Source: a virus. Taken from it: a stretch of DNA of 40,537 nucleotides. Shown one piece after another: positions 8,951 to 29,809 of this stretch. The notes under the pieces were generated by a model. The model did not search any database, was not told the DNA's origin, and worked only from the letters and a program-made list of their open reading frames with translations. The stretch is taken from the IMG/VR virus record IMGVR_UViG_3300031825_000412, positions 1 through 40,537 of that record. One strand, given 5' to 3'. Within the stretch, counting starts at the first letter, position 1, and each line of letters opens with the position of its first letter. Made by a program: the position numbers and the translations under genes.

Positions 8951-9039
8951 AAGCTATTGAAGCATCCGTTATATTGCCGAGTTGAGGCCTGCGATCGATC
9001 ATGCCGAATCAACTGGCGATCGCGTGAGTGGAGGTATCC

Positions 9040-9999
9040 GTGACGCTTTCACCAGAATTCGCGCAGGCGTTCTCGCTTTTGCATCCGACAGCTTGGCGGA
9101 AGGTGGACGCTTTAAAGCGAAAGCACGGTCGATTCGTGCATTACACCACAGCGGAAGCCGCTGCCAAGATGCTTCTTAGCAAGCAAGTATGGATGCGGCG
9201 TACGCTAATAATGAATGACTTTATGGAGACAGAATACGGACTTCAGTTGTTGTTGGAAGCATACAACAGAGACGTCGGAAAAGAGTTCCAGACCACCCTT
9301 AATGAGATTGCGCCGGATTTGGCAACTCAATGCGCGCAGTCGTTCGACGGATGGCTCCATATCTTTAAGCGCGAAACCTACATGTCGTGCATCTCTGAGC
9401 ACGACGATGATGAGGATGCGCTGGGGCGACTTTCAATGTGGCGAGCCTATGGAAATACGTCCGGCGTCGCAATTGTGTGCAACAATACTCCGTTTGTTGC
9501 GGACTCGGATGCGCTGAAAGCTTATTCAAGCCCGGTTGCGTACTTCACCTCGCATCAATTTAATGATGAATTCCGAGAAATAACCCATAATCTTCGGAAA
9601 AACATCTCGCTCTTTAGAGCCTTGCCCGAAGGCGCTCTGCGCGGAATGATCTTCAATGTGTATCGATTTGCCATGTTGAGCACAAAGCACCCAGGTTTTC
9701 ACGAGGAGCGCGAGTGGCGCATTATATATACACCGAGCTTCGATAAATCCCCACACATCAGCTCTTCCGTAGAAATATTAAACGGAATTCCTCAGCATGT
9801 TTGTAAAATTCCACTTAAGAATATACCGGAAGAACATTTTTTTGGAGCGGATCCATCTGAGATTGTCAGTCGAATCATAGTCGGCCCTACAAAGCATCCA
9901 TACGCATCTTATGCAGCGTTTGTCTCTATTCTTTCTGAAATAGGCGTTTCGGACGCAAGTAAGAAGGTAGTCGTATCAGAAATACCATTGCGGCAATAG
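9040..9999 (+). CDS. DUF2971-family protein (moron)
   Basis: A 319-aa soluble protein of the DUF2971 type: FVHYTTAEAAAKMLLSKQVWMRR near the N-terminus, NDFMETEYG, then MSCISEHDDDEDALGRLSMWRAYG, and EEREWRII further on. The biochemical role of this family is not settled; members recur in defence islands. GTG 9040 is chosen over GTG 9028 because GGAGG lies five bases upstream. The gene is visibly AT-richer than its surroundings, runs against the late operon, and sits between baseplate genes V and W. It looks like an independently expressed cargo gene. Only three bases separate its stop from the stop of V. Confidence 0.8.
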   Translation: MTLSPEFAQAFSLLHPTAWRKVDALKRKHGRFVHYTTAEAAAKMLLSKQVWMRRTLIMNDFMETEYGLQLLLEAYNRDVGKEFQTTLNEIAPDLATQCAQSFDGWLHIFKRETYMSCISEHDDDEDALGRLSMWRAYGNTSGVAIVCNNTPFVADSDALKAYSSPVAYFTSHQFNDEFREITHNLRKNISLFRALPEGALRGMIFNVYRFAMLSTKHPGFHEEREWRIIYTPSFDKSPHISSSVEILNGIPQHVCKIPLKNIPEEHFFGADPSEIVSRIIVGPTKHPYASYAAFVSILSEIGVSDASKKVVVSEIPLRQ

Positions 10000-12388: not shown

Positions 12389-13192
12389 ATGGCGGACGAC
12401 AGCGGCGGCAAGAAAAGTGGAGAGGCTGCGCACTCCAACGGGTGGGAAGGCCCTTGGTACCTATTACTTGGAGGGCTCATGCTAGCTCTCCTCTTAGTGT
12501 TTGCCATGGGAGCTCCTGATACGTTTTGTGACGGGGATCCAAAGATCTCTGGTGAGACGACGGCCGCCTGTGTAAGGGGTTGGCTTGAAGCATTGGGGCC
12601 CTGGATTGCGATTGCTGTCGCATGGCTAGCGCTTCGGCCCGCTTATTCTCAGCTATCTGTCCTGCTTCAACAGAGCGCCATTGGAGCTCTCGCCGTTATT
12701 GATCGAAATATCGATCAGATTGAGGAATTTAGAATATCCCTCGTAAGAATATCCGATATGGCCGTCGATTTCCGAAGTCGCTGGAGGCAGAGGATATCAA
12801 ACAATTTGGATCTAGATATCATTAGAACCCTTCAATCGTTGTCATCCGATATTTCTCTTAACGAGAAAATAAGGACATTTTCTAGAATGGGCCATGAGCT
12901 AAAGATATTCTCCTCGGAGAGCATCAAAGACGAAACACTCGCGCGGTTTATCAACTGCGTTACAATTCTGAGGGTGATTGCCCTTCATTGCACGAGTGAT
13001 CCCGGTAGAAATTACTTAATCTCTGAGAAATTCGGAACAGACAAGGTGGAGCTAAGAACGGCACGGGATATTGATCTATTGTTGATTAGTTTGCTGAAAT
13101 CGATTGAAGATTTGGTCGGAGAGTCATCGCCTGATCTCCACAAGATGGAAGATCGACGTTCTCTCCTCCAAGTGACGGCACTCGGCAATTAG
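12389..13192 (+). CDS. Two-helix membrane protein of unknown function (moron)
   Basis: A 267-aa protein with two transmembrane helices at about 23-42 (WYLLLGGLMLALLLVFAMG) and 68-85 (LGPWIAIAVAWLALRPAY), then a roughly 180-residue soluble, mostly helical domain. The short loop between the helices has two cysteines (FCDGD, AACVRG) and is probably periplasmic. I do not recognise the family. GGGAGGGGG precedes the ATG. AT-richer codon use, plus-strand orientation and position between tape measure and U mark it as cargo. The architecture, a small membrane anchor plus a cytoplasmic domain, would fit an exclusion or abortive protein; this is inference. Confidence 0.7.
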   Translation: MADDSGGKKSGEAAHSNGWEGPWYLLLGGLMLALLLVFAMGAPDTFCDGDPKISGETTAACVRGWLEALGPWIAIAVAWLALRPAYSQLSVLLQQSAIGALAVIDRNIDQIEEFRISLVRISDMAVDFRSRWRQRISNNLDLDIIRTLQSLSSDISLNEKIRTFSRMGHELKIFSSESIKDETLARFINCVTILRVIALHCTSDPGRNYLISEKFGTDKVELRTARDIDLLLISLLKSIEDLVGESSPDLHKMEDRRSLLQVTALGN

Positions 13193-16972: not shown

Positions 16973-18295
16973 TCAGAACGTGCCGCTGTCGGCGGTGGCG
17001 AGCCCGAGCGGATCGGCGATGAGGTCGATGTTGATCCCGCGCTCGACGGTGACCCGCTCCATGATCCCGATCGGCGCGTATTCGAGGCCGTAGTAGAACC
17101 AGCCGTCGGCGGCGGACGCGACGGTCGTGCGGGTGCGGTCGAACCAGAACCGGCCGTCATAGAGCGCCGGGTCCTGGCCCGACGACGGGTCCATCGCCGT
17201 CTTCGAGCGGATGAAGGCGTTGATCGTCTCCTCGACGCTTTCGAGCATCGCCGGCGAGGCGTTCCGGTCGACGATCTCGTCGAGGTAGTAGAGGATCGCC
17301 TCGTCGAGCATGTCCTCGATCAGCTGCACGTGCAGGAAGTTGCGGATGTCCGACGAGGTCGGATAGGCGGCCGAGCGGTTGCCCGCGGTGTGCGGCCCCT
17401 TGCCCCAGCGCTCCTGCGTGGTGACGATGCCGGCGGCGCGCAGGAGCTGCGCATCGGAGGTCGGATCGCCCGGCACGTAGAGCACCGGCGTCGCCGTGCC
17501 CTCGATCCCGTAGATCGGCCGGTTGCTCGGGCTGTGGTGGTAGCCGTACTCGAGGATCGACGACAGCCACACGCCGAGGAGGCGCGAGGAGTACGGGTCG
17601 GCGACGATCGCGCCGGCGGTGACCGGGTCGGCGATCATGACCTCCGGCCAGCACAGCACCATCCGGCGCGAGGCAGTCTGCCAGTCGAACTCGCCGTCGG
17701 CTCCGCGCGCCTCGATCACGTCCTGTCGCGTCGCGGCCGCCGGCGCGTCGAGGAAGGCGCGGGCGCGGATGCGGTTGCAGATCACCTCGAGCTCGGCGCG
17801 CACGCCCGCGAGCCCCGTGAAGCCCGGCGTATGGACGAACTTCGGGAACCACCCGAACTTCTGGAAGCAGCCATAGGCGCCCTTGAGGCCCGACGGCTTG
17901 CCGGCCGCGTCGAACGTCCCGTTGATGGTGAGGTTCGTGACCTTGGTGGGGTCGGGCGCGTCCTCGGCATCCTTGTGGACGGCCGGGTCGAAGACGTTGC
18001 GCACCACGATCGTGCCGACGCCCTTGGTCAGCCCCTGGTCGAAGATCGCGTCGAGCGCCCGCGGGATGGTGTAGCCCGCCGTCATCGGCCCGAAGAACGA
18101 CGCCGCCTCGGCCGCGGAACGGACGATCACGTCCGTCTCGACATAGTCCGCGCGCGCCTCCGGCGTCGCGTGCACGAGGTGGACCGGCGCCGTGCCGACG
18201 AGATAGGTCGTCGCCGCCTTGACCTCGCGGACGGTCGTCGCGCCGACCGGGCGGTCGACGATCTCGGGGCCGAAATAGGGATCGGTGCCGGCCAT
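16973..18295 (-). CDS. Tail sheath protein (FI family)
   Basis: A 440-aa sheath subunit of the P2 FI class. Seen are the N-terminal VREVKAATTYLVGTAP, SAAEAASFFGPMTAGYTIPRALDAIFDQG, the central VNRIRA-type segment ending DVIEARG, and the C-terminal domain GIMERVTVERGINIDLI near residues 415-432. Contraction of the sheath drives DNA delivery. It is followed by the tube gene, so the tail is a myovirus-type tail. Confidence 0.9.
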   Translation of the reverse strand: MAGTDPYFGPEIVDRPVGATTVREVKAATTYLVGTAPVHLVHATPEARADYVETDVIVRSAAEAASFFGPMTAGYTIPRALDAIFDQGLTKGVGTIVVRNVFDPAVHKDAEDAPDPTKVTNLTINGTFDAAGKPSGLKGAYGCFQKFGWFPKFVHTPGFTGLAGVRAELEVICNRIRARAFLDAPAAATRQDVIEARGADGEFDWQTASRRMVLCWPEVMIADPVTAGAIVADPYSSRLLGVWLSSILEYGYHHSPSNRPIYGIEGTATPVLYVPGDPTSDAQLLRAAGIVTTQERWGKGPHTAGNRSAAYPTSSDIRNFLHVQLIEDMLDEAILYYLDEIVDRNASPAMLESVEETINAFIRSKTAMDPSSGQDPALYDGRFWFDRTRTTVASAADGWFYYGLEYAPIGIMERVTVERGINIDLIADPLGLATADSGTF

Positions 18296-21527: not shown

Positions 21528-22007
21528 TCAGGCGCTCGGGTCGACGGCCTTGACGGCGTCGAGGAAGCTGGTGCCGGGGTGCTGGCGCTGATAGGCGATC
21601 GCCTTGCCGTGGATGTCCGCACGCTCGCGATCGACCGTCTTGCCCTCCGGCGCCGCGAACTCGGCCGCGGCCGGCTGGCTGCCGCCCTCCTTCGGCACGA
21701 CGCCGCCATAGACGACGGCCTTCGGCATCGCGGCGAGAAGGTCGCGCAGCGCCTGGCGCTGTGGCGCCTTCGCCTCCTTCCCGCCCTCCGAGAACGAGAT
21801 CTCGGTCTCGGCGTCGAGCCCGTCGAGGAGGCCGACGACGCGGTCCTTCAGCGCCGGGATGAGCCGGCCCTCGGCGACGAGCGCCTCGGCGAAGCTCTCG
21901 TGCTCGCGGTGGTCGAGCGCGCGGGTGCGGGCGACGAGCGCCGTCTCGCGCGCGGCGAAGTCGGCGGCATCGGCGGCGGGATCGCCGCCGGCGGGCTTGG
22001 TCGGCAT
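21528..22007 (-). CDS. Nested scaffold protein (Mu Z-like, in frame within the protease gene)
   Basis: An internal ATG (22005-22007) in the protease frame, preceded by GAGG at five bases, would give a 159-aa helical scaffold starting MPTKPAGGDPAADAADFAAR. The break falls exactly at the proline-rich linker between protease and scaffold halves. Lambda Nu3 and Mu Z are made in the same way. Inference from position and ribosome-binding site. Confidence 0.6.
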   Translation of the reverse strand: MPTKPAGGDPAADAADFAARETALVARTRALDHREHESFAEALVAEGRLIPALKDRVVGLLDGLDAETEISFSEGGKEAKAPQRQALRDLLAAMPKAVVYGGVVPKEGGSQPAAAEFAAPEGKTVDRERADIHGKAIAYQRQHPGTSFLDAVKAVDPSA

Positions 22008-22670
22008 CGGAACCTCGGGGGTGGGTGTGGTCGGGTCGGCGGGCGCGGAGAACGCCGGCGAGGCGGGCGGCTCGCGGTCTGCGGCCTCGTCGAGCCAGCG
22101 GATCTGCCAGTCGGGCACGACGCGGTCTGCGGTCTCCAGCCCGAACTTTTCGATCATCCAGTCGCGGATGCCGCGGAAGAGGCTGGAGACGTCCTTGAGG
22201 GCCGGTTCGCCGAACTCGATGATGACGGCGCCGTCGTCTGCGGCCGCGAAGGTGACGGGCTTCAGGCCGGGCACGGCGGGCGCCGCACCGCCGAGAAAGC
22301 CGATGTGGCGCGGATACCAGCGGCCGGGCTTCGGGTTGGCGGCGCTGTCCGGGCGGAAGAGCGAGAGCGAGACCTTGCGATAGCGCCCGTCGGCGACGGC
22401 CGCGACGAACTCGGCGGCGAGATCGCCGATGTCGGCGAGGAGGCGGCCGGCCGTCTCGTCCCACCGGAAGGCGGCCGCCCAGCCGAACGCCGGGTCGTTG
22501 TCGTTCGGATGCCCGACGACGACCGGTGCCGGCGCCGCCTCCGGATCATAGTCCGCGGCGATCGCCGCGAGATCCTCGGCCGAGAACGCCAGCGCGCCGC
22601 CGCCCATCGGCACGAAGGTGCCCGGCCGGAAGACTTCGATCGTCCGCGTCTCTGACGTGCTGCCCGCCAC
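21528..22670 (-). CDS. I: Phage protease / scaffold precursor (Mu gpI-like)
   Basis: A 380-aa protein of the Mu prophage I family. The N-terminal protease half (1-185) has VVVGHPNDNDPAFGWA, the loop RYRKVSLSLFRPD and PRHIGFLGGAAPAVPGL. A proline-rich linker (205-225) leads to a helical scaffold half. It matures the head and is then removed. The start is GTG 22668-22670 with a weak GGGG upstream. An internal ATG at residue 222 with its own ribosome-binding site makes the scaffold alone, as Mu gene Z does. This I is the head protease, unrelated to the baseplate gene I in this window. Confidence 0.88.
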   Translation of the reverse strand: MAGSTSETRTIEVFRPGTFVPMGGGALAFSAEDLAAIAADYDPEAAPAPVVVGHPNDNDPAFGWAAAFRWDETAGRLLADIGDLAAEFVAAVADGRYRKVSLSLFRPDSAANPKPGRWYPRHIGFLGGAAPAVPGLKPVTFAAADDGAVIIEFGEPALKDVSSLFRGIRDWMIEKFGLETADRVVPDWQIRWLDEAADREPPASPAFSAPADPTTPTPEVPMPTKPAGGDPAADAADFAARETALVARTRALDHREHESFAEALVAEGRLIPALKDRVVGLLDGLDAETEISFSEGGKEAKAPQRQALRDLLAAMPKAVVYGGVVPKEGGSQPAAAEFAAPEGKTVDRERADIHGKAIAYQRQHPGTSFLDAVKAVDPSA

Positions 22671-22722
22671 CTGGCGCCCCGCAAGCTGATTGCAGGGCGA
22701 CGATGGGCCGAAGCGTCAACGG

Positions 22723-22744
22723 GGTCCGCATGACTGCGGCAGCG
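22723..22744 (-). promoter_or_regulatory. Candidate Mor/C-type activator site before the protease-capsid operon
   Basis: Second copy of the late block: TGAC-TGC-GGCA here (22731-22741), one arm imperfect, followed on the minus strand by the shared GTCATGCGGACCCC. It lies about 65 bases before the GTG of the protease gene, the position of Mu PI. Confidence 0.5.
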
Positions 22745-22746
22745 AC

Positions 22747-22777
22747 TTGACCATTCTTACCGAGTGATGAGCATACT
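22747..22777 (+). promoter_or_regulatory. Possible sigma70-type promoter of the secreted-protein moron
   Basis: TTGACC (22747-22752) and CATACT (22772-22777) are separated by 19 bases, longer than ideal. Transcription from it would begin downstream of the two ATGs at 22764/22767 and so supports the GTG start at 22830. Confidence 0.3.
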
Positions 22778-22829
22778 GACCCATGGCCGACGCGCGAAGC
22801 GTACATGGGAAAAATCGGAGAAACGAACC

Positions 22830-23387
22830 GTGGAAGGCACGATAAGGGTACGCAGACTATGGTGGTCTGTCTCGCTGGGTTTGATTATTGCGTGCCCGTC
22901 CGCTGCGTCGAGCGATCAAGTCAAGTTCTATGATCAGACCGGCAAGCATGCGGGAACCTATTTGTGTCTACCGGTTGCGATTGGCGGAGTTGCATGGGAC
23001 GACCATCTGCATGAATGGAATGGAACGCGATTTAGAGTTCCGAATCGGAAGTTAATAGTTGTTGTTAAGACAAACAAATTGCGGAAAATTGGCAAGGCAA
23101 TTGATGGAGATCCGGCAATGGGATATATTGTAACCTTGAGAGAATCTGAATCAAAAAGCGATAAAAGATGCGAAGGAGATTTTAGAGAGACGCACGATGG
23201 AGTTATGAATGACGTATTCATAAGTAGATTTGGAATTATGTCTTGTGCAGACCCTATAAATCAGATGACTATAAATTTCGAAACTGGAAGGTATATGTCG
23301 ATATACCCTATCGGATACATAGGTGGATCAAATAGTGGAGAGGATACTCCTAGTATAGAAATTGGAACGTGCACAGTTATTCAATGA
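22830..23387 (+). CDS. Secreted or lipoprotein-like protein of unknown function (moron)
   Basis: A 185-aa protein from GTG 22830 (GGAG nine bases upstream; ATGs at 22764/22767 would add 21-22 residues). The N-terminus is a signal sequence: basic RVRR, hydrophobic LWWSVSLGLIIAC, then PSAASSDQ. IIAC could be a lipobox; otherwise cleavage after ASS is likely. The mature part (about 155 aa) has three further cysteines and a conserved-looking GYIVTLRESESKSDKRCEGDF segment; I do not recognise it. It is strongly AT-rich and opposite to the late operon. A periplasmic or surface cargo protein could modify the lysogen envelope. Confidence 0.65.
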   Translation: MEGTIRVRRLWWSVSLGLIIACPSAASSDQVKFYDQTGKHAGTYLCLPVAIGGVAWDDHLHEWNGTRFRVPNRKLIVVVKTNKLRKIGKAIDGDPAMGYIVTLRESESKSDKRCEGDFRETHDGVMNDVFISRFGIMSCADPINQMTINFETGRYMSIYPIGYIGGSNSGEDTPSIEIGTCTVIQ

Positions 23388-23388
23388 C

Positions 23389-23556
23389 CTAGCAGGCTGC
23401 GGAAAAGGGGTTCTTTGGGTGACGGCCGCGCAAACTCGATCCTCTTCAGGCGGGTTCGGCGGAAATCTGATCCGGCGCGCTGCAGATTTCGCGTTGCGCT
23501 TTGCACGGTCGGCGGCGGCGATCTGGTCGAGCTCGACTTTTTCAACAGCCTGCTAG
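23389..23556. mobile_element. MITE-like element with CTAG target duplication
   Basis: Imperfect inverted ends: CAGGCTGCGGAAAA on the left (from 23393) and, on the opposite strand, CAGGCTGTTGAAAA on the right (to 23552). Both sides carry a CTAG tetranucleotide (23389-23392 and 23553-23556), consistent with a 4-base target duplication. The interior of about 160 bp has no convincing transposase. The ends resemble those I recall for IS1182/IS5-group elements of Proteobacteria; the parent was not identified. Confidence 0.7.
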
Positions 23557-23820
23557 AGGGCGCCCCCCTGTCTAATCACTCCAATATATGGCTCGTTTGA
23601 ATCGGCCTCGCATCCCGTTGCCGCTAACCCGTCATCCTGCCATTCTAACGCCCCACTAACGGCGGTTGCCGGAGGCGCCCGCTGGCGTGGTGCGGCGCGC
23701 CGAAAATTCGCACCCACGGGGCTCCTATTCAATGCTGAGTTACCCGACTGCCACTGGTCTATGGAGGCCTCGCTACTGAGCTTGCTGTAAGCTGGCGCGG
23801 GGCGTCGAGGAGAGGGCCGC
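23557..23820. other. Non-coding stretch before the Abi-alpha-like gene
   Basis: Together with the MITE-like element this is a 433-base gap. Apart from a GGAG ribosome-binding site just before 23821, I see no gene, RNA or convincing promoter; a minus-strand frame across it only mirrors the flanking gene. Confidence 0.5.
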
Positions 23821-24564
23821 ATGAGCGACTTGACAAATGAGGGCGCCGAGGCTGCTGGGGAGATTGCCAAGACGACAGGCAAGGCGGTCGATGCGGCAAG
23901 GGATTTGGGAGGGTGGCTGAATCGCATTTTTGGCGAAGCAGTCGAGCACACAGTTGGTATTATTTGGACAGATAAAGTTCGAGAGAGGCGCATAGCGAGC
24001 TCAATTTATTCATGGGCTCGCCTAAGAACCCTATTAGAGAAGACAGAGGCAGAGCTTGAGCGCAAGGGGATATCAAGATATAGGATTCCACCCGCGAAGA
24101 TTATGCTTCCATTACTCGAGAATGCAACATTGGAAGATGATGAATCACTTCAATTGCTTTGGGCGAAACTTCTGGCGACGGCCTTAGACGAGGCCGGAGA
24201 GGAGGTTCATCGAAAATTTGTGACGATATTGTCGGAGTTGACAAGAGGTGACGCTGAAACCCTCGAAAAGATATGGTTAAATTGGAGAATTATGGACAAG
24301 AAAACAACGAGAAGCCAAACTGTAACATATGGCCCGGGCGTCGATGGTGCATGCGCTCATAAGGAGTCATCCATAATCACCCTGAATCGTCTTGGAATAA
24401 TCGAGCCTGCATATCTAAAATTTAAAACATTCTCCTCTCCGCAGAATTATTCGGACCCAGATTTCTTTCCGCGTGAGGAGGAAGTAACTATTCCTGGAGA
24501 TCTTGACGTTGTTTCAATTACTAAACTTGGTGAAGAGTTCTGCTTATCTGTCTTGGGGACTTGA
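23821..24564 (+). CDS. Abi-alpha (DUF4393)-like abortive-infection protein (moron)
   Basis: A 247-aa protein. The N-terminal 45 residues are an amphipathic A/G-rich helix pair (AAGEIAKTTGKAVDAARDLG, LGGWLNRIFGEAVEHTVGII) that could touch membranes. The core motif IPPAKIMLPLLENATLEDDE and SLQLLWAKLLATALDE (around 88-125) is the signature of DUF4393/Abi-alpha. A C-terminal domain ends TKLGEEFCLSVL. Proteins of this family are linked to abortive infection; the mechanism is not known to me. GAGGAGAGG precedes the ATG. AT-rich, plus-strand and next to a mobile element, it fits a superinfection-defence cargo gene. Confidence 0.72.
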   Translation: MSDLTNEGAEAAGEIAKTTGKAVDAARDLGGWLNRIFGEAVEHTVGIIWTDKVRERRIASSIYSWARLRTLLEKTEAELERKGISRYRIPPAKIMLPLLENATLEDDESLQLLWAKLLATALDEAGEEVHRKFVTILSELTRGDAETLEKIWLNWRIMDKKTTRSQTVTYGPGVDGACAHKESSIITLNRLGIIEPAYLKFKTFSSPQNYSDPDFFPREEEVTIPGDLDVVSITKLGEEFCLSVLGT

Positions 24565-24627: not shown

Positions 24628-25092
24628 TTACGAATTGATCGACAGCCAATTCTCGAATATCTCGCCGATCGCCGTCCGCTCGGCCACGCCGAAGCCGAGA
24701 TAGGGGCGCGCCGGGATCGTCACCGCGAGGCCGCGGCCGGCCTGGCCACCGAACTGGTGGATGGCGCCATAGACGACGTTCGTTCCGACGGTCGCCGAGG
24801 TCGCGTCGGAGCGCGGGGCGATCGAGCCGATCAGCCGGCCGCTGGCGCGCAGGATGGTGACGCCGCCCTTGCCGCGGCGCCTGCGGGCGACGAGCGTCGC
24901 CGGCGAGAGGCGGCGCCAGCGGTTGCCGTCAGGGTCGGTTTCGCTCTCGAAGCGGTCGTGCACCGCATTGAGCATCACCTCCCGCACCTCGAGCATCGGT
25001 TCGGAGAGGTCGCCCAAGTGGCGCAAGAGCCGCGCCGCCTTACGGCGGAGGTCCGCGTCGTCGACGGTGACGGTGTACTCTACGCCGGCCAT
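24628..25092 (-). CDS. G: Virion morphogenesis protein (Mu gpG-like)
   Basis: A 154-aa member of the phage tail S/virion morphogenesis family: MLEVREVMLNAVHDRFESETDPDGNRWRRLSPATLVARR is the diagnostic segment, with ASGRLIGSI and GTNVVYGAIHQFGG after it and RPYLGFG near the end. In Mu it acts in head/tail completion. The last codons (LSINS, TAA stop) are AT-richer than the rest, next to the moron block, which suggests that the insertion touched its 3' end. Confidence 0.85.
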   Translation of the reverse strand: MAGVEYTVTVDDADLRRKAARLLRHLGDLSEPMLEVREVMLNAVHDRFESETDPDGNRWRRLSPATLVARRRRGKGGVTILRASGRLIGSIAPRSDATSATVGTNVVYGAIHQFGGQAGRGLAVTIPARPYLGFGVAERTAIGEIFENWLSINS

Positions 25093-25175: not shown

Positions 25176-25203
25176 GGGCGGCCCGACCGATGGCCGCCCT
25201 TTT
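25176..25203 (+). terminator. Plus-strand intrinsic-terminator-like hairpin
   Basis: Perfect 8-bp stem GGGCGGCC/GGCCGCCC with an 8-base loop followed by TTTTCATTTTCC on the plus strand. It would stop transcripts coming from the morons before they run antisense into the portal gene. On the minus strand it has no U-tract. Confidence 0.45.
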
Positions 25204-28127
25204 CATTTTCCCGGCCGGCGATAGAGCAGCGCGCCCGTGCGCTGGCGGTTGAGATAGTCGGCTTTCGCCGCTTCGCTCTTGCCGGCCTTCGGCGTGAACG
25301 AGGTGACGCCCGACCAGCCGGTGCGCGACCATTCGAACAGCGTCAGGCCGCCGGCGGCCGGATCGAACCTCAGATAGCGCCGGACGAGCCGGGGCGCGGT
25401 GCGCCCGACGTCCCACGCCCAATCGACCCAGATCTCGTCCGGGTCGCGGATCGCCTCGGCGAGCCGCAGCGCCTCCGGGCCGCGCGTGCCCTTGCGCACC
25501 TTCCATCCGCCGCTCGCCGCCTGGAACAGCTGGTCGGAGATCACCAGCGCCTGGCCGGCCTTGTCGCGCCAGACGACGCCCTGGCCGATGGCCGCGCCGA
25601 ACTCCCCGAGGAAGGCGGCGACGTAGTCCTCGGAGGCCTGCCCCTCCGGCAGCCGCGGCGCTTCGATCGGCCTGGCGATCGAAGCGAGCGGCGGCTCGGT
25701 GGTGATCATCCGCGGGCCGATCGCCTCGGCCGGCGCGAGCGGCGCCTGAAGCTCGGGCGGCACGAGACCGCGCTCCCAGGTGTCTCCCGGCTGGTAGCGC
25801 CATTCCGGCGGCACGGCCTCGGCGATCTCCGCGGCGGTCGGCGGCACATCGCCGCCGCTCTTGCCGAGCCGCGCCATGTCGCGGTCGGAGAGCGTGCGCA
25901 CGCCGCAGGTGCAGCCCCAGTCGTTCGGCGGATAGATGCGCGACCAGATCGGGTCGTCGTGCCGGTACACCTTACCGTCGAGCGCGACGTGGTCGGCGCG
26001 CGGGCTCTTCGGCTTGCGCAGCACGCCGTGGCGATACTGCCACCACGGCCGCCGGGCCGCGACCTCGCGCATCTGCTTCAGCCGCCCGGCCTGGTGCGAG
26101 GTGCGCAGGTTCGTCTCGATGATCGTCCGCGCCCGCCACGCACGGCTGGCGGCGGTGTCGGACCCGGTCCAGCCGGTCCATCCGTGCTCGCCGACGATGC
26201 GCTCGAAGTCGCGCCGGAAGTCGGCCGCCGTGCCGCCGGTATCGGCGATCTTGACCACGGCCGCCTGGAGATCCTCGACGAGCGCCGTCGCGGTGGCGCC
26301 GGCGACGATGAAGCCGCGGTCGTGCCCGGCGTGCATCAGGTCGGTGTAGCGGCGCGACGGCAGCGCCACCTTGCCGCGCAGGAATGCGACCTGCTCCTCG
26401 AACGGCCGGCCGCCCCACTCGACCGCGGCGGCGTCGACGGTGCCGGCCGCCTCGTCGACGACCTCCGCCCGGCCGGCGAGCTCGGCGAGCACCAGGCCGT
26501 CGCCGATCGCCGTGGCGAGCCCGTCGACCGGCAAGCCCGCTGCCACCGTCAGGAGCGCCTGGCTGACCGCGGCGAGGTCGTCCGAGGCGGCGATCGCCGT
26601 CTTAAGACGCGCGACGAGGGCCTCGATCTCCGGTGCGGCGGCGCGGTCGGCGGCATCGACGAGCCCCGCCGCCTCGCTGTCGGCGAAGCAGGCCGGGCAC
26701 GTCGCCGGCGCGGCGGCGAACAGCCTGTCGAAGGCCGAGAACGCGGGCTCGGGCTCCTCGTCGCCGTCGCCGTCGGCCACGCCGGCCGGCTCGGCCGCCG
26801 CCGGCGGCGTCTCCGGCTCGCGCAGGAGCGGCTGCCGATCGGCGCCGGCGGCGCGCAGCAGGTCGACGACGAGGCCGTCCGCGCCGGTGGCCGCCGCCTC
26901 CAGGAGCCGGAGCATGTAACCGGGCACCCGGATACGGTCGAGGAAGGCCGCCGCCCGCTCGGCCGCTTCGATCTCGGCGACGTCGGCCTCGGCCTTCTGC
27001 TTCCGCGCCGCCTGGATCTCAGCCTCGTTTGCCGGCCGCGGCCGCCAGACCCGCGGCGGCTTGGCGCCGGGCACGTTGTAGTCGGTCAGCCACGGGAGCA
27101 GGGTTTCGGCGAACGTCGCCGACTGAAGGTCGCCGTCGGCGTCGACGAGCTGGTCGAGGATCTCGGCGTGCGTCTCGCTCGCCGCGCGCGAGCCGCCGCC
27201 CTGGATGTTGGTCGTCAGCGTCTCGCCGAGCACGCACTCGGAGATCTGCTCGTCCCAATAGCGGCACCACGCCTCATAGCCCGCCTCGCCGGCGCGCTTC
27301 GCTTCGAGGTAGTCGAGTTCGGTTCCGATCGGCACCAGGATGGCGGCGCCCTCGGCGAGCTGCGCGAGCGAGGAGAGGAGCTTCGCCTGATCGTCCGGCA
27401 GCATCCCGACCGGGTGCTTGCCGACCGGCACGGGCGCCGCGAACCGCTCCAGGAAGTGCAGCCAGAAGCTCACGCCCTCGCGCTTGAACAGCACCGCCCA
27501 GAAAAGCCGCGTGCCGAGGCCGAGGCCATAGGGGTTGTTCCCGCGCACGCCGAAGCGGTGGACGATGAAGTTGCGGTCCGGCAGCGCGATCCCGTCCGCC
27601 ATCGCCTCGCGCGTGAGAAGGCGCGGCCGCCAGTCGGCATCGAAGACGAACCGGCGCGGGTCGTGCGCGACGATGCGCTCGGGCACGACGTGCGCGCCGT
27701 CGCGCATCCACACGATCTCGGCGACGGCGAAGCCCTTCAGCGTCGCATCGCCGAGGTCGGCCGTGATGCGGTCGAACGGCAGCGCCTTGAGCACCGCCTC
27801 GGTGAGGTCCGCGGCCTTCGCCGAGGCGGCGTCCGTGCCGCCCGCCTCGACCTCCCACGCCCGGCCGACCAGGTGCGTCTTGCGCTTCGTCAGCACCGCA
27901 TAGGCGTGCGGGTCGCGCTCGATCTCGTCATAGAGCGCGAGGCCCCTGCCGCCGGCCTTGCGCAGAAGCGTCTCGTCGAGTGGCCGGAGCGTCGTCGTGA
28001 AGCCCGGAATGGTGATGTCGTTGCGGACGTTGGCGATCAGCGCGCGCGACGCCGCCGGCAAATTCTTGCGCGAAGGCGGGTCCTTGCGCGAAGCCTCGAT
28101 CGCCCGCGCCTTCGGCTTCTTGCTCAT
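25203..28127 (-). CDS. Portal-MuF-nuclease-like fusion protein
   Basis: A single 974-aa chain. Residues 1-593 are a DUF935 portal (Mu gp29-like): TIPGFTTTLRPLDETLL, FLERFAAPVPVGKHPVGM, and the C-terminal LAELAGRAEV. Residues 594-770 are a MuF (gp30) domain: PFEEQVAFLRGKVALPS, GFIVAGA and the diagnostic WSRIYPPNDWGCTCGV around 735-750. Residues 855-974 resemble a PBECR2-type nuclease domain (LVISDQLF, RDPDEIWVDWAWD). Portal and MuF are usually separate genes; no stop or frameshift interrupts this frame. MuF proteins go into the virion and can deliver C-terminal effectors with the DNA. No immunity gene is evident. The first two domains are secure, the toxin call is moderate. Confidence 0.85.
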   Translation of the reverse strand: MSKKPKARAIEASRKDPPSRKNLPAASRALIANVRNDITIPGFTTTLRPLDETLLRKAGGRGLALYDEIERDPHAYAVLTKRKTHLVGRAWEVEAGGTDAASAKAADLTEAVLKALPFDRITADLGDATLKGFAVAEIVWMRDGAHVVPERIVAHDPRRFVFDADWRPRLLTREAMADGIALPDRNFIVHRFGVRGNNPYGLGLGTRLFWAVLFKREGVSFWLHFLERFAAPVPVGKHPVGMLPDDQAKLLSSLAQLAEGAAILVPIGTELDYLEAKRAGEAGYEAWCRYWDEQISECVLGETLTTNIQGGGSRAASETHAEILDQLVDADGDLQSATFAETLLPWLTDYNVPGAKPPRVWRPRPANEAEIQAARKQKAEADVAEIEAAERAAAFLDRIRVPGYMLRLLEAAATGADGLVVDLLRAAGADRQPLLREPETPPAAAEPAGVADGDGDEEPEPAFSAFDRLFAAAPATCPACFADSEAAGLVDAADRAAAPEIEALVARLKTAIAASDDLAAVSQALLTVAAGLPVDGLATAIGDGLVLAELAGRAEVVDEAAGTVDAAAVEWGGRPFEEQVAFLRGKVALPSRRYTDLMHAGHDRGFIVAGATATALVEDLQAAVVKIADTGGTAADFRRDFERIVGEHGWTGWTGSDTAASRAWRARTIIETNLRTSHQAGRLKQMREVAARRPWWQYRHGVLRKPKSPRADHVALDGKVYRHDDPIWSRIYPPNDWGCTCGVRTLSDRDMARLGKSGGDVPPTAAEIAEAVPPEWRYQPGDTWERGLVPPELQAPLAPAEAIGPRMITTEPPLASIARPIEAPRLPEGQASEDYVAAFLGEFGAAIGQGVVWRDKAGQALVISDQLFQAASGGWKVRKGTRGPEALRLAEAIRDPDEIWVDWAWDVGRTAPRLVRRYLRFDPAAGGLTLFEWSRTGWSGVTSFTPKAGKSEAAKADYLNRQRTGALLYRRPGK

Positions 28128-29809
28128 AGCCGGTAGCCTCCGGTCGGGCTCGCGCGGCGCGGCACGGTCTTGATCGCCGACGGGTCGAGCATGGTGGCGC
28201 CGTAGTGGATCGCCCCCGACCACAGCATTTCGAGCGCGTCCGGCCCGTCGTCGTGGTCGTCGGCGTGCTCGGGGTGCCAATGCCGAAGCTGCTCGAGGAG
28301 CGTCGCCTGGCTCTGGTGGAAGCGGATCGCGCCCATCGCCGTGTACGGCTGCAAGCGCTCGATGCGGAGCGTCTTGTCGGTCGACGGCGTGACCGGGACA
28401 GCGGGCAGCGCCACACCCTGTTGGAGCGCGCGCACCATCAGCTCGGTCCGCAGGAACTCCTGGAACTGGACGCTCTCAACGAACCACAGCTGGCAGGCGT
28501 ATTCCTTCTGCATGGCGATGATGTCGGCGATGATGGTGTCCGGCAGCCGCCGACGGATCGAGGCCTCGACCACGTCGAGCACCGGATGGCGCCCGGTGCG
28601 GTCGAGCCCGCCGACGAGGATCGCCGACGGGTCGCGGCCGCGCCCGCGCTTGCCGAGCGAGGGATCGACCGAGCCGAAGAAGATCCACTCCCGCCGCTTC
28701 ATCACCCAGAAGGTGAGCGCCTGGAACGGCGAGCCCTCGACGATCGGCTCGCCCTGCTGCTCGCTCGCGAAGGCGGACGAGCTCTCGGCCCGTTCCGTCA
28801 TCAGCTGCAGGAGCGTCTGCATCGCCGGCCAGTTGAGCACGGCGCCGTCGTCCATCCAGTCGCGGTTCTCGGCGTAGAACGCCTGCGCCGCCGCCTCGCC
28901 GTCGTTCGCCAGGATCTCGCCGAAGCGGTCCCATAGCGCGAGGTCGGACGGCAACGTCATGAGCGCGCGGAAGCGCGCCACCCGCCAGCCCGGCCGGCGT
29001 GCGTTGCGGATCAGCACCGCGTCGTGGTGCAGCACCGTGCCGATGTGCAGGAGGTCGATGGAGCCGTTCGCCGGCCCGAGCTTCACGACGCTCTTCAGCA
29101 CCCACGTTTCGAGCTTGTCGCGCTGCTTCGCCGAGGCGACGTTCTCGTCGTTCTCGATGTCGTCGAGGACAACCAGGTCGGGCCGGTGCGGCCCGTGCCG
29201 GCGGCCGCGCAGCTTCATGCCCGAGCCGGCGCCCTGGATGCGGACGTTGTTCGCGAGCACGATCTCGCCCTCGCGCCACACCCGGCCGGTGCCGGCGATC
29301 TCCGGAAAGTCCATCGCGAGGCGCGGGTTCACCTCGCACTCGACCTTGATCGCCTCGATCTGGAGGACGGCCTGTGCCCAGCTGTCCATCACGACGAGGG
29401 CGTACCGCGTCCGGCCGATGATCGACCGCCAGAGCGGATAGACGAGCGAGATGAGCGTCGACTTGGCCGAGCCGCGCGGCGCGATGATGACGTCGCGCGC
29501 GCCGCCGCCCGCCGCGGCGATCTCCGGCAGGCGGGCGAAGAGGTGCGCATGGAGGAGCGACGGCGCGGCCGTCAGGTAGTGCGGAAAGTAGGTCTCGGCG
29601 AAGAACTGGAACCCGGTCACCGGGTCCTGCACCTTCCGCCGGCGATCGGCCCGCGCGGCCGGGTCGGTGGGGAAGGCCTCGCAGTCGAGCTCGACGCGCA
29701 GCCGCAGCGCCGCGACGAGCTTCTCGACCTCGTCGCCGAAGCGGTCGGGGCCGATCTCCGGCTGAAGCCGCAGCCGGCCGGGCAGCGGGCTCATCGGCGG
29801 AGTGCTCAC
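28124..29809 (-). CDS. Terminase large subunit (Mu gp28-like)
   Basis: A 561-aa packaging motor. Walker A is APRGSAKST (residues 110-118), Walker B is LVVLDDIENDE (212-222). The nuclease domain begins FFGSVDPSLGKRGRGRD, and HDDGPDALEML near the C-terminus supplies further acidic metal ligands. The GTG at 29807-29809 overlaps the small terminase stop as GTGA; ATG 29792-29794 is a possible alternative giving 556 aa. Mu-type terminases package headful from an integrated copy and carry flanking host DNA. Confidence 0.9.
   Translation of the reverse strand: MSTPPMSPLPGRLRLQPEIGPDRFGDEVEKLVAALRLRVELDCEAFPTDPAARADRRRKVQDPVTGFQFFAETYFPHYLTAAPSLLHAHLFARLPEIAAAGGGARDVIIAPRGSAKSTLISLVYPLWRSIIGRTRYALVVMDSWAQAVLQIEAIKVECEVNPRLAMDFPEIAGTGRVWREGEIVLANNVRIQGAGSGMKLRGRRHGPHRPDLVVLDDIENDENVASAKQRDKLETWVLKSVVKLGPANGSIDLLHIGTVLHHDAVLIRNARRPGWRVARFRALMTLPSDLALWDRFGEILANDGEAAAQAFYAENRDWMDDGAVLNWPAMQTLLQLMTERAESSSAFASEQQGEPIVEGSPFQALTFWVMKRREWIFFGSVDPSLGKRGRGRDPSAILVGGLDRTGRHPVLDVVEASIRRRLPDTIIADIIAMQKEYACQLWFVESVQFQEFLRTELMVRALQQGVALPAVPVTPSTDKTLRIERLQPYTAMGAIRFHQSQATLLEQLRHWHPEHADDHDDGPDALEMLWSGAIHYGATMLDPSAIKTVPRRASPTGGYRL

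Follow-up and report, generated by a model that had tools for sequence, protein, structure and literature searches.

The Mu-like phage analysed here probably carries a moron (cargo) locus at its centre, in the gap that in other phages holds the strong gyrase site (SGS) or an acr-aca1 cassette, with cargo on both sides of a conserved core. The window, by which we mean the whole stretch of DNA that we analysed, is a virus record of 40,537 bp with a GC content of 70.5%, from a Mu-like phage with a contractile tail. The genes, the slot that they occupy, the retention of a tandem repeat in the gap and the variable cargo of relatives are established at the level of sequence. The kind of locus is known and the cargo of the window adds a new case to it; the surprise is the surrounding conserved element.

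Among the relatives that we found, the nearest is L003, an Ancylobacter gelatini prophage whose capsid protein is 77% identical. The late genes run on the minus strand in the order portal/MuF, gpG, protease, scaffold and capsid, and the features of the locus and of two further cargo junctions are as follows.

21528..22670, minus strand: head maturation protease, the right border (phrog_976, E 1.6e-99)
22671..22829: protease-proximal rest of the gap, with a CATCGTCGC stretch that by eye resembles the CATGGTCGC stretch of relatives
22830 (GTG)..23387, plus strand: gene 1, putative exported protein, 185 aa, GC 43%, with the export-type hydrophobic N-terminus LWWSVSLGLIIAC
23389..23556: MITE including its CTAG target duplications, an element of 160 bp whose inverted ends, CAGGCTGCGGAAAA / CAGGCTGTTGAAAA, are imperfect
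23557..23820: central element, non-coding, GC 63%, which separates gene 1 and the MITE from the Abi-alpha gene and contains the tandem repeat
23645..23661, minus strand (the late-gene strand): tandem repeat CGTTAG-TGGGG-CGTTAG, with the same motif in relatives
23821..24564, plus strand: Abi-alpha gene (gene 2), 247 aa, GC 47% (PF14337, E 6.3e-23; PADLOC candidate PDC-S47, E 2.2e-10)
24628..25092, minus strand: gpG, tail completion or Neck1 protein, the left border (Pfam Phage_tail_S, E 1e-33; phrog_26, E 6.5e-36)
9028..9999, plus strand: DUF2971 gene at the second cargo site, the gpV-gp46 junction, GC 48% (PF11185, E 4.8e-11)
12389..13192, plus strand: gene for a 267-aa protein with hydrophobic stretches, GC 48%, which follows the tape measure gene and marks the third cargo site

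The two AT-rich plus-strand genes and the MITE had been described in a sequence-only reading of the window, and all of them are present between gpG and the protease just where it placed them. The left part of the central element is also the upstream region of the Abi-alpha gene. Relatives show a correlated AT pattern in the central element (r 0.22, a value reached by 9 of 2000 shuffles), and in the protease-proximal rest of the gap the alignment with relatives is restricted to the part adjoining the protease start. At window positions 25203-28280 on the minus strand, a 1025-aa frame comprises the Mu portal, MuF and, at its C-terminus, PBECR2, a Barnase-EndoU-ColicinE5/D-RelE-like nuclease domain. 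Portal and F are two distinct genes in RR1-B and RcapMu and are fused in the window.

The protease and gpG had been taken to be normally adjacent. They are neighbours in relatives, but typically with a non-coding gap of about 250 bp between them, which is the gap that contains the SGS in Mu. In RcapMu, RcWaterboi, RR1-B, YPCBV-1, phiSHP3, Bhz63 and Lsp-JY19 this gap measures 214-284 bp and has no annotated gene. L003, RcapMu, RcWaterboi and RR1-B have the head module of the window and, within the gap, its tandem repeat but, unlike the window, are cargo-free, with gaps of 242-273 bp. Across the 86 junctions that we measured by profile search in the loci fetched, leaving out genomes that were matched by the protease model and had no detectable upstream gpG, 77 are shorter than 400 bp and nine are 615-1957 bp, and the 1.96 kb junction of the window is the longest.

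These nine long junctions differ in gene content. Two of them (L033 and L052) carry a 151-155 aa protein with RNELAHG that is HEPN-like but falls under the family cut-off, another (L049) a membrane-anchored 143-aa protein, and three (L053, L090 and L154) cargo without recognised identity. Among loci with no detectable gpG, L080 has PDC-S42, a PADLOC defence candidate (E 2e-94), L040 has a HamC/DUF3223 protein (E 3e-12), and L105 has a gene that matches RES weakly and adjoins a likely insertion-sequence gene. In this last locus (L105:4101-5927), the RES-like toxin-type gene and the likely insertion-sequence gene stand immediately before the protease. Constant content in all relatives would speak against a cargo site; we looked for it, and the content of the junction varies or is absent. 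Chance as the source of the cargo was rejected: the gene families and boundaries are clean, and in other phages other genes are found there.

The anti-CRISPR locus of Pseudomonas Mu-like phages is a low-GC region, RGP G (PMC4378225, PMC10155984), and in JBD30 both AcrF1 and Aca1 lie inside the gpG-protease gap. As in that region, the window cargo is flanked by gpG and the protease, is low in GC and is variable or absent in relatives. Both loci have the order gpG, cargo, protease, and in both there is cargo between gpG and the tandem repeat CGTTAG-N5-CGTTAG, a placement that applies to the Abi-alpha gene, whereas gene 1 and the MITE are on the opposite side. The window differs from the Pseudomonas locus in having Abi-alpha instead of acr-aca1, in carrying this cargo antisense to the late genes, and in having a second block of cargo, which includes a MITE, between the repeat and the protease.

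The motif of the gap is a direct repeat with 11-bp spacing, with the typical form CGTTAG-N5-CGTTAGAAATCG. An exact hexamer repeat at offset 11 is present in 45 of 68 non-redundant gaps, while shuffles average 7.8 with a maximum of 15; in the same 68 gaps there is a slight excess at offsets of 10, 12 and 20, and all others are at background. Nearby coding stretches of the same length, taken as a control, have a hexamer repeat at offset 11 in 2-5 of about 60. The alphaproteobacterial form is CGT[TC]AG-N5-CGT[TC]AG, about 75 bp past the gpG stop, and in JBD30 and Ab30 identical letters, CGTTAGAACCCCGTTAGAAATCG, are found between the acr-type cargo and the protease. Wherever the gap was called, the tandem repeat is confined to it, with one exception seen, L155. 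That locus (L155:7600-10400) is a rearranged Mu-like prophage in which the capsid gene precedes the protease, and its tandem repeat, with a Mor/C-like gene on one side and the capsid gene on the other, is on the opposite strand.

A gene-blind scan of all IMG/VR contigs for the exact motif, CGTTAG-N5-CGTTAGAAATCG, gave 38 matches, some of them in near-duplicate contigs, so the counts that follow are not counts of independent events. Nearly all (34/38) are 175-222 bp upstream of a protease and on the protease strand, and in two further matches the contig ends on the protease side and gpG precedes the motif. gpG is detectable with 30 of the matches, 62-81 bp before the motif in 18 and 257-1229 bp before it in 12. 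The inserts in these 12 are mostly acr-aca1 type cassettes. Among the contents that we read are AcrF1, further small genes, and Aca1-like proteins accompanied by an Aca1-type operator; one insert, of 257 bp, lacks any open frame of 45 codons. Given the 34 fixed spacings and the 12 inserts, we infer that the entry point of cargo in these exact matches is the stretch from gpG to the motif.

The anti-CRISPR cassettes, the HEPN-like gene and the Abi-alpha gene of the window all have gpG on one side and the tandem repeat on the other. Gene 1 and the MITE are on the protease side of the repeat, 88 bp away from it, a placement that the window shares with few loci (L049, L115, L080). The repeat was kept in 12 of the 14 cargo-bearing loci inspected, and in the other two, L084 and L105, we found no tandem repeat.

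We put it just short of an even chance that the tandem repeat is the wrapping core of an SGS that is conserved across many transposable phages and fixes where cargo lands. The central SGS of Mu is needed for fast replicative transposition and is best placed at the genome centre (PMC10052514). A link between the cargo locus and the gyrase site was suggested earlier as a personal communication in a paper which also states that it is unknown whether transposable phages in general have gyrase sites (PMC8705779). The Mu reference record annotates the gyrase cut at 17879-17880, between G (which ends at 17859) and I (which starts at 18056), the same gap as that of the window cargo locus, and a similar repeat, TTTAAAC-N5-TTTAACG, lies right of the annotated cut. 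The Mu repeat differs in having 12-bp spacing and no cargo, and gyrase cleavage was measured in Mu; the site would be a predicted one in the window and its relatives.

The tandem repeat is single in the gap, in the position of a Mu-type strong gyrase site. In the records of RR1-B, RcapMu, RcWaterboi, JBD30 and Ab30 its position, calculated by hand from the coordinates, is at about 51-57% of the length, and in the window phage it may likewise be central. The AT content around the repeat has a period of 10-10.5 bp over about 60 bp to the left and 110 bp to the right, with a periodicity above that of all 400 shuffles; there is also power at 8 and 13 bp, and because the phages are related these peaks are not independent. 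The position, the single copy and an AT period as expected of wrapped DNA support the gyrase reading.

For Ab30, a 37-bp insertion-free segment was proposed as the gyrase site (PMC5977238). We did not adopt this segment as the SGS; it lies just after gpG, about 900 bp from the tandem repeat. The segment (L172:1737-1773) falls on a GGCACATTGTGCC palindrome that resembles the operator of Aca1, and this makes Aca1 binding an alternative cause.

The region of the repeat also shows promoter-like and terminator-like stretches, and we give a sizeable minority chance to the repeat and its surroundings being a regulatory element, for example a late promoter equivalent to P_I of Mu with a direct-repeat activator site. 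Cargo would then avoid the repeat because late gene expression needs it. Both half-sites change in step (TTAG/TTAG, TCAG/TCAG, TTAA/TTAA), as for a dimeric protein, the spacing between the motif and the protease is fixed, and in several gaps a promoter-like TTGA-N17-CATNNT and terminator-like stretches follow the repeat. Such an activator site would resemble the TTAA-N7-TTAA boxes of the OmpR/CtrA type. However, the repeat is present in a single copy per phage and, in the loci searched, is absent from other late operons, which makes a general late-activator (C-type) site less likely; the AT periodicity on both sides suggests wrapping, and gyrase cuts Mu in the same gap.

The arrangement after the repeat can be followed in the gaps of L020, L022, L037, L043, L055 and others, where TTGA-N17-CATNNT is succeeded at a short distance by a CCGGAC...GTCCGG-TTTT hairpin. 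This stretch could yield a short phage RNA of roughly 50 nt.

Gene 2 had been called Abi-alpha-like from its translation and the call was right. Its match to Abi_alpha (PF14337) scores 82.2 bits, well above the cut-off of 29, and extends over profile positions 6-193 of 196. The frame is intact, the whole domain is kept and there is a good ribosome-binding site. The family has a published abortive-infection member, EF2833 of Enterococcus faecalis prophage 6, after which it is named; cloned alone with its own promoter, EF2833 blocked plaque formation by phage Idefix, with infected cells dying and lysis coming about 10 minutes early (PMC6356687). Like EF2833, gene 2 belongs to PF14337/DUF4393 and is a single prophage-borne gene, but EF2833 comes from an Enterococcus host and gene 2 from a proteobacterial Mu-like phage; the likeness is at the level of the family. 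By family membership, gene 2 may thus have an abortive-infection role.

Homologues of gene 2 are mobile. Relatives that are 49% identical are found on the conjugative plasmid pG20, beside methyltransferase, helicase and nuclease genes, and relatives that are 33% identical in Vibrio filamentous phages, and we counted this mobility in favour of a moron. The family is uncommon in the class (5/240 genomes). A search of viral contigs found no close relatives of the gene, so its pairing with the window phage may be recent or accidental.

The known phenotype of the family, earlier lysis of infected cells (PMC6356687), would also suit a gene that serves the phage's own lytic cycle, for example in the timing of lysis, and not defence. 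We consider such a role very improbable in view of the homologues in filamentous phages and on a plasmid and of the orientation of the gene, which opposes that of the late operon around it and makes a late lytic gene unlikely.

Gene 1 also has an intact reading frame, with a possible lipobox, IIAC, read by eye. It has no family match in Pfam, PHROGs or PADLOC, and the relatives that we found are solely Rhizobium / Agrobacterium plasmid proteins at 22-27% identity. A search of phages found no relatives, and a search of 297 genomes of the order, run without a positive control, found nothing. That the product changes the cell surface, as had been proposed, is a guess; the export signal is all that can be argued for a surface role. 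AlphaFold models of the gene 1 and Abi-alpha proteins, made without alignment, had pLDDT of 39 and 31 and were set aside.

The third piece of cargo begins one base past the stop codon of gene 1. It is short and non-coding and has terminal inverted repeats and a target duplication, as expected of a MITE; the inverted arms are 18 nt long and 89% complementary, and the 14-bp ends are imperfect. The same terminal inverted repeats occur in two viral contigs, in elements of about 109 bp (L133, with CTAG at both ends) and 140 bp (L137, with CTAG and CTGG). Apart from these short elements with the same ends, no parent transposase was found for the MITE, and a search of plasmids with its DNA gave no match.

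Gene 1 and Abi-alpha are on opposite sides of the core and do not form a single unit, and a shared operon was rejected for the two genes, with the MITE and the retained central element in between. A simple promoter scan found no convincing promoter for either gene. The cargo might instead be neutral, decaying AT-rich junk, acquired by illegitimate recombination and a MITE hop and of no benefit to phage or host, as would fit a gene 1 that is almost without relatives and is closely followed by a MITE, and relatives that are mostly cargo-free. We find this unlikely, as both frames are intact, the Abi-alpha gene retains its whole domain and its ribosome-binding site, and defence or counter-defence genes recur among the inserts of relatives.

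Three preferred cargo sites had been proposed for this phage. Two of the three junctions, gpG-protease and gpV-gp46, vary in relatives and so are recurrent cargo sites. At the gpV-gp46 junction, L164 has 262-aa and 160-aa frames on the opposite strand, L170 a DNA-methylase-like gene (by eye) and L168 a 325-aa membrane-type protein, where its sister phage L165 has only a PAAR-like gene (by eye); L166, L167 and L171 are cargo-free there. The proposal was not borne out for the tape-measure junction, where among the contractile relatives checked only the window has cargo, aside from a 207-bp gene nearby in YPCBV-1. The 267-aa protein encoded there has no family in Pfam, PHROGs or PADLOC.

Taking the locus as a moron locus, we propose the following. 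The Abi-alpha gene would have been inserted into the usual slot, from gpG to the tandem repeat, and the gene for the exported protein and the MITE on the protease side of the core, such cargo being tolerated here while the central element survives. Cargo may collect in the gap because the gap holds no gene and because a central insertion keeps the element central, as Mu replicative transposition needs of its SGS. In the lysogen, each of the two cargo genes would have its own promoter and be transcribed against a silent late operon. Abi-alpha may kill or prematurely lyse cells infected by another phage, as EF2833 does, and this early death of infected cells would protect the lysogen population. 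The exported product of gene 1 may block superinfection or be neutral.

The comparison extends the idea of a cargo locus in the gyrase gap from one phage group to dozens of phages, and it points to one particular conserved DNA element as the mark of the slot in different phage groups. The gpG-protease gap takes Abi-alpha and other defence-type genes too, and the stretch from gpG to the repeat is a place to seek new defence and counter-defence genes in Mu-like prophages. If the tandem repeat is indeed the core of an SGS, this would answer whether gyrase sites are general in transposable phages, and the anti-CRISPR and defence locus would be a by-product of genome topology.
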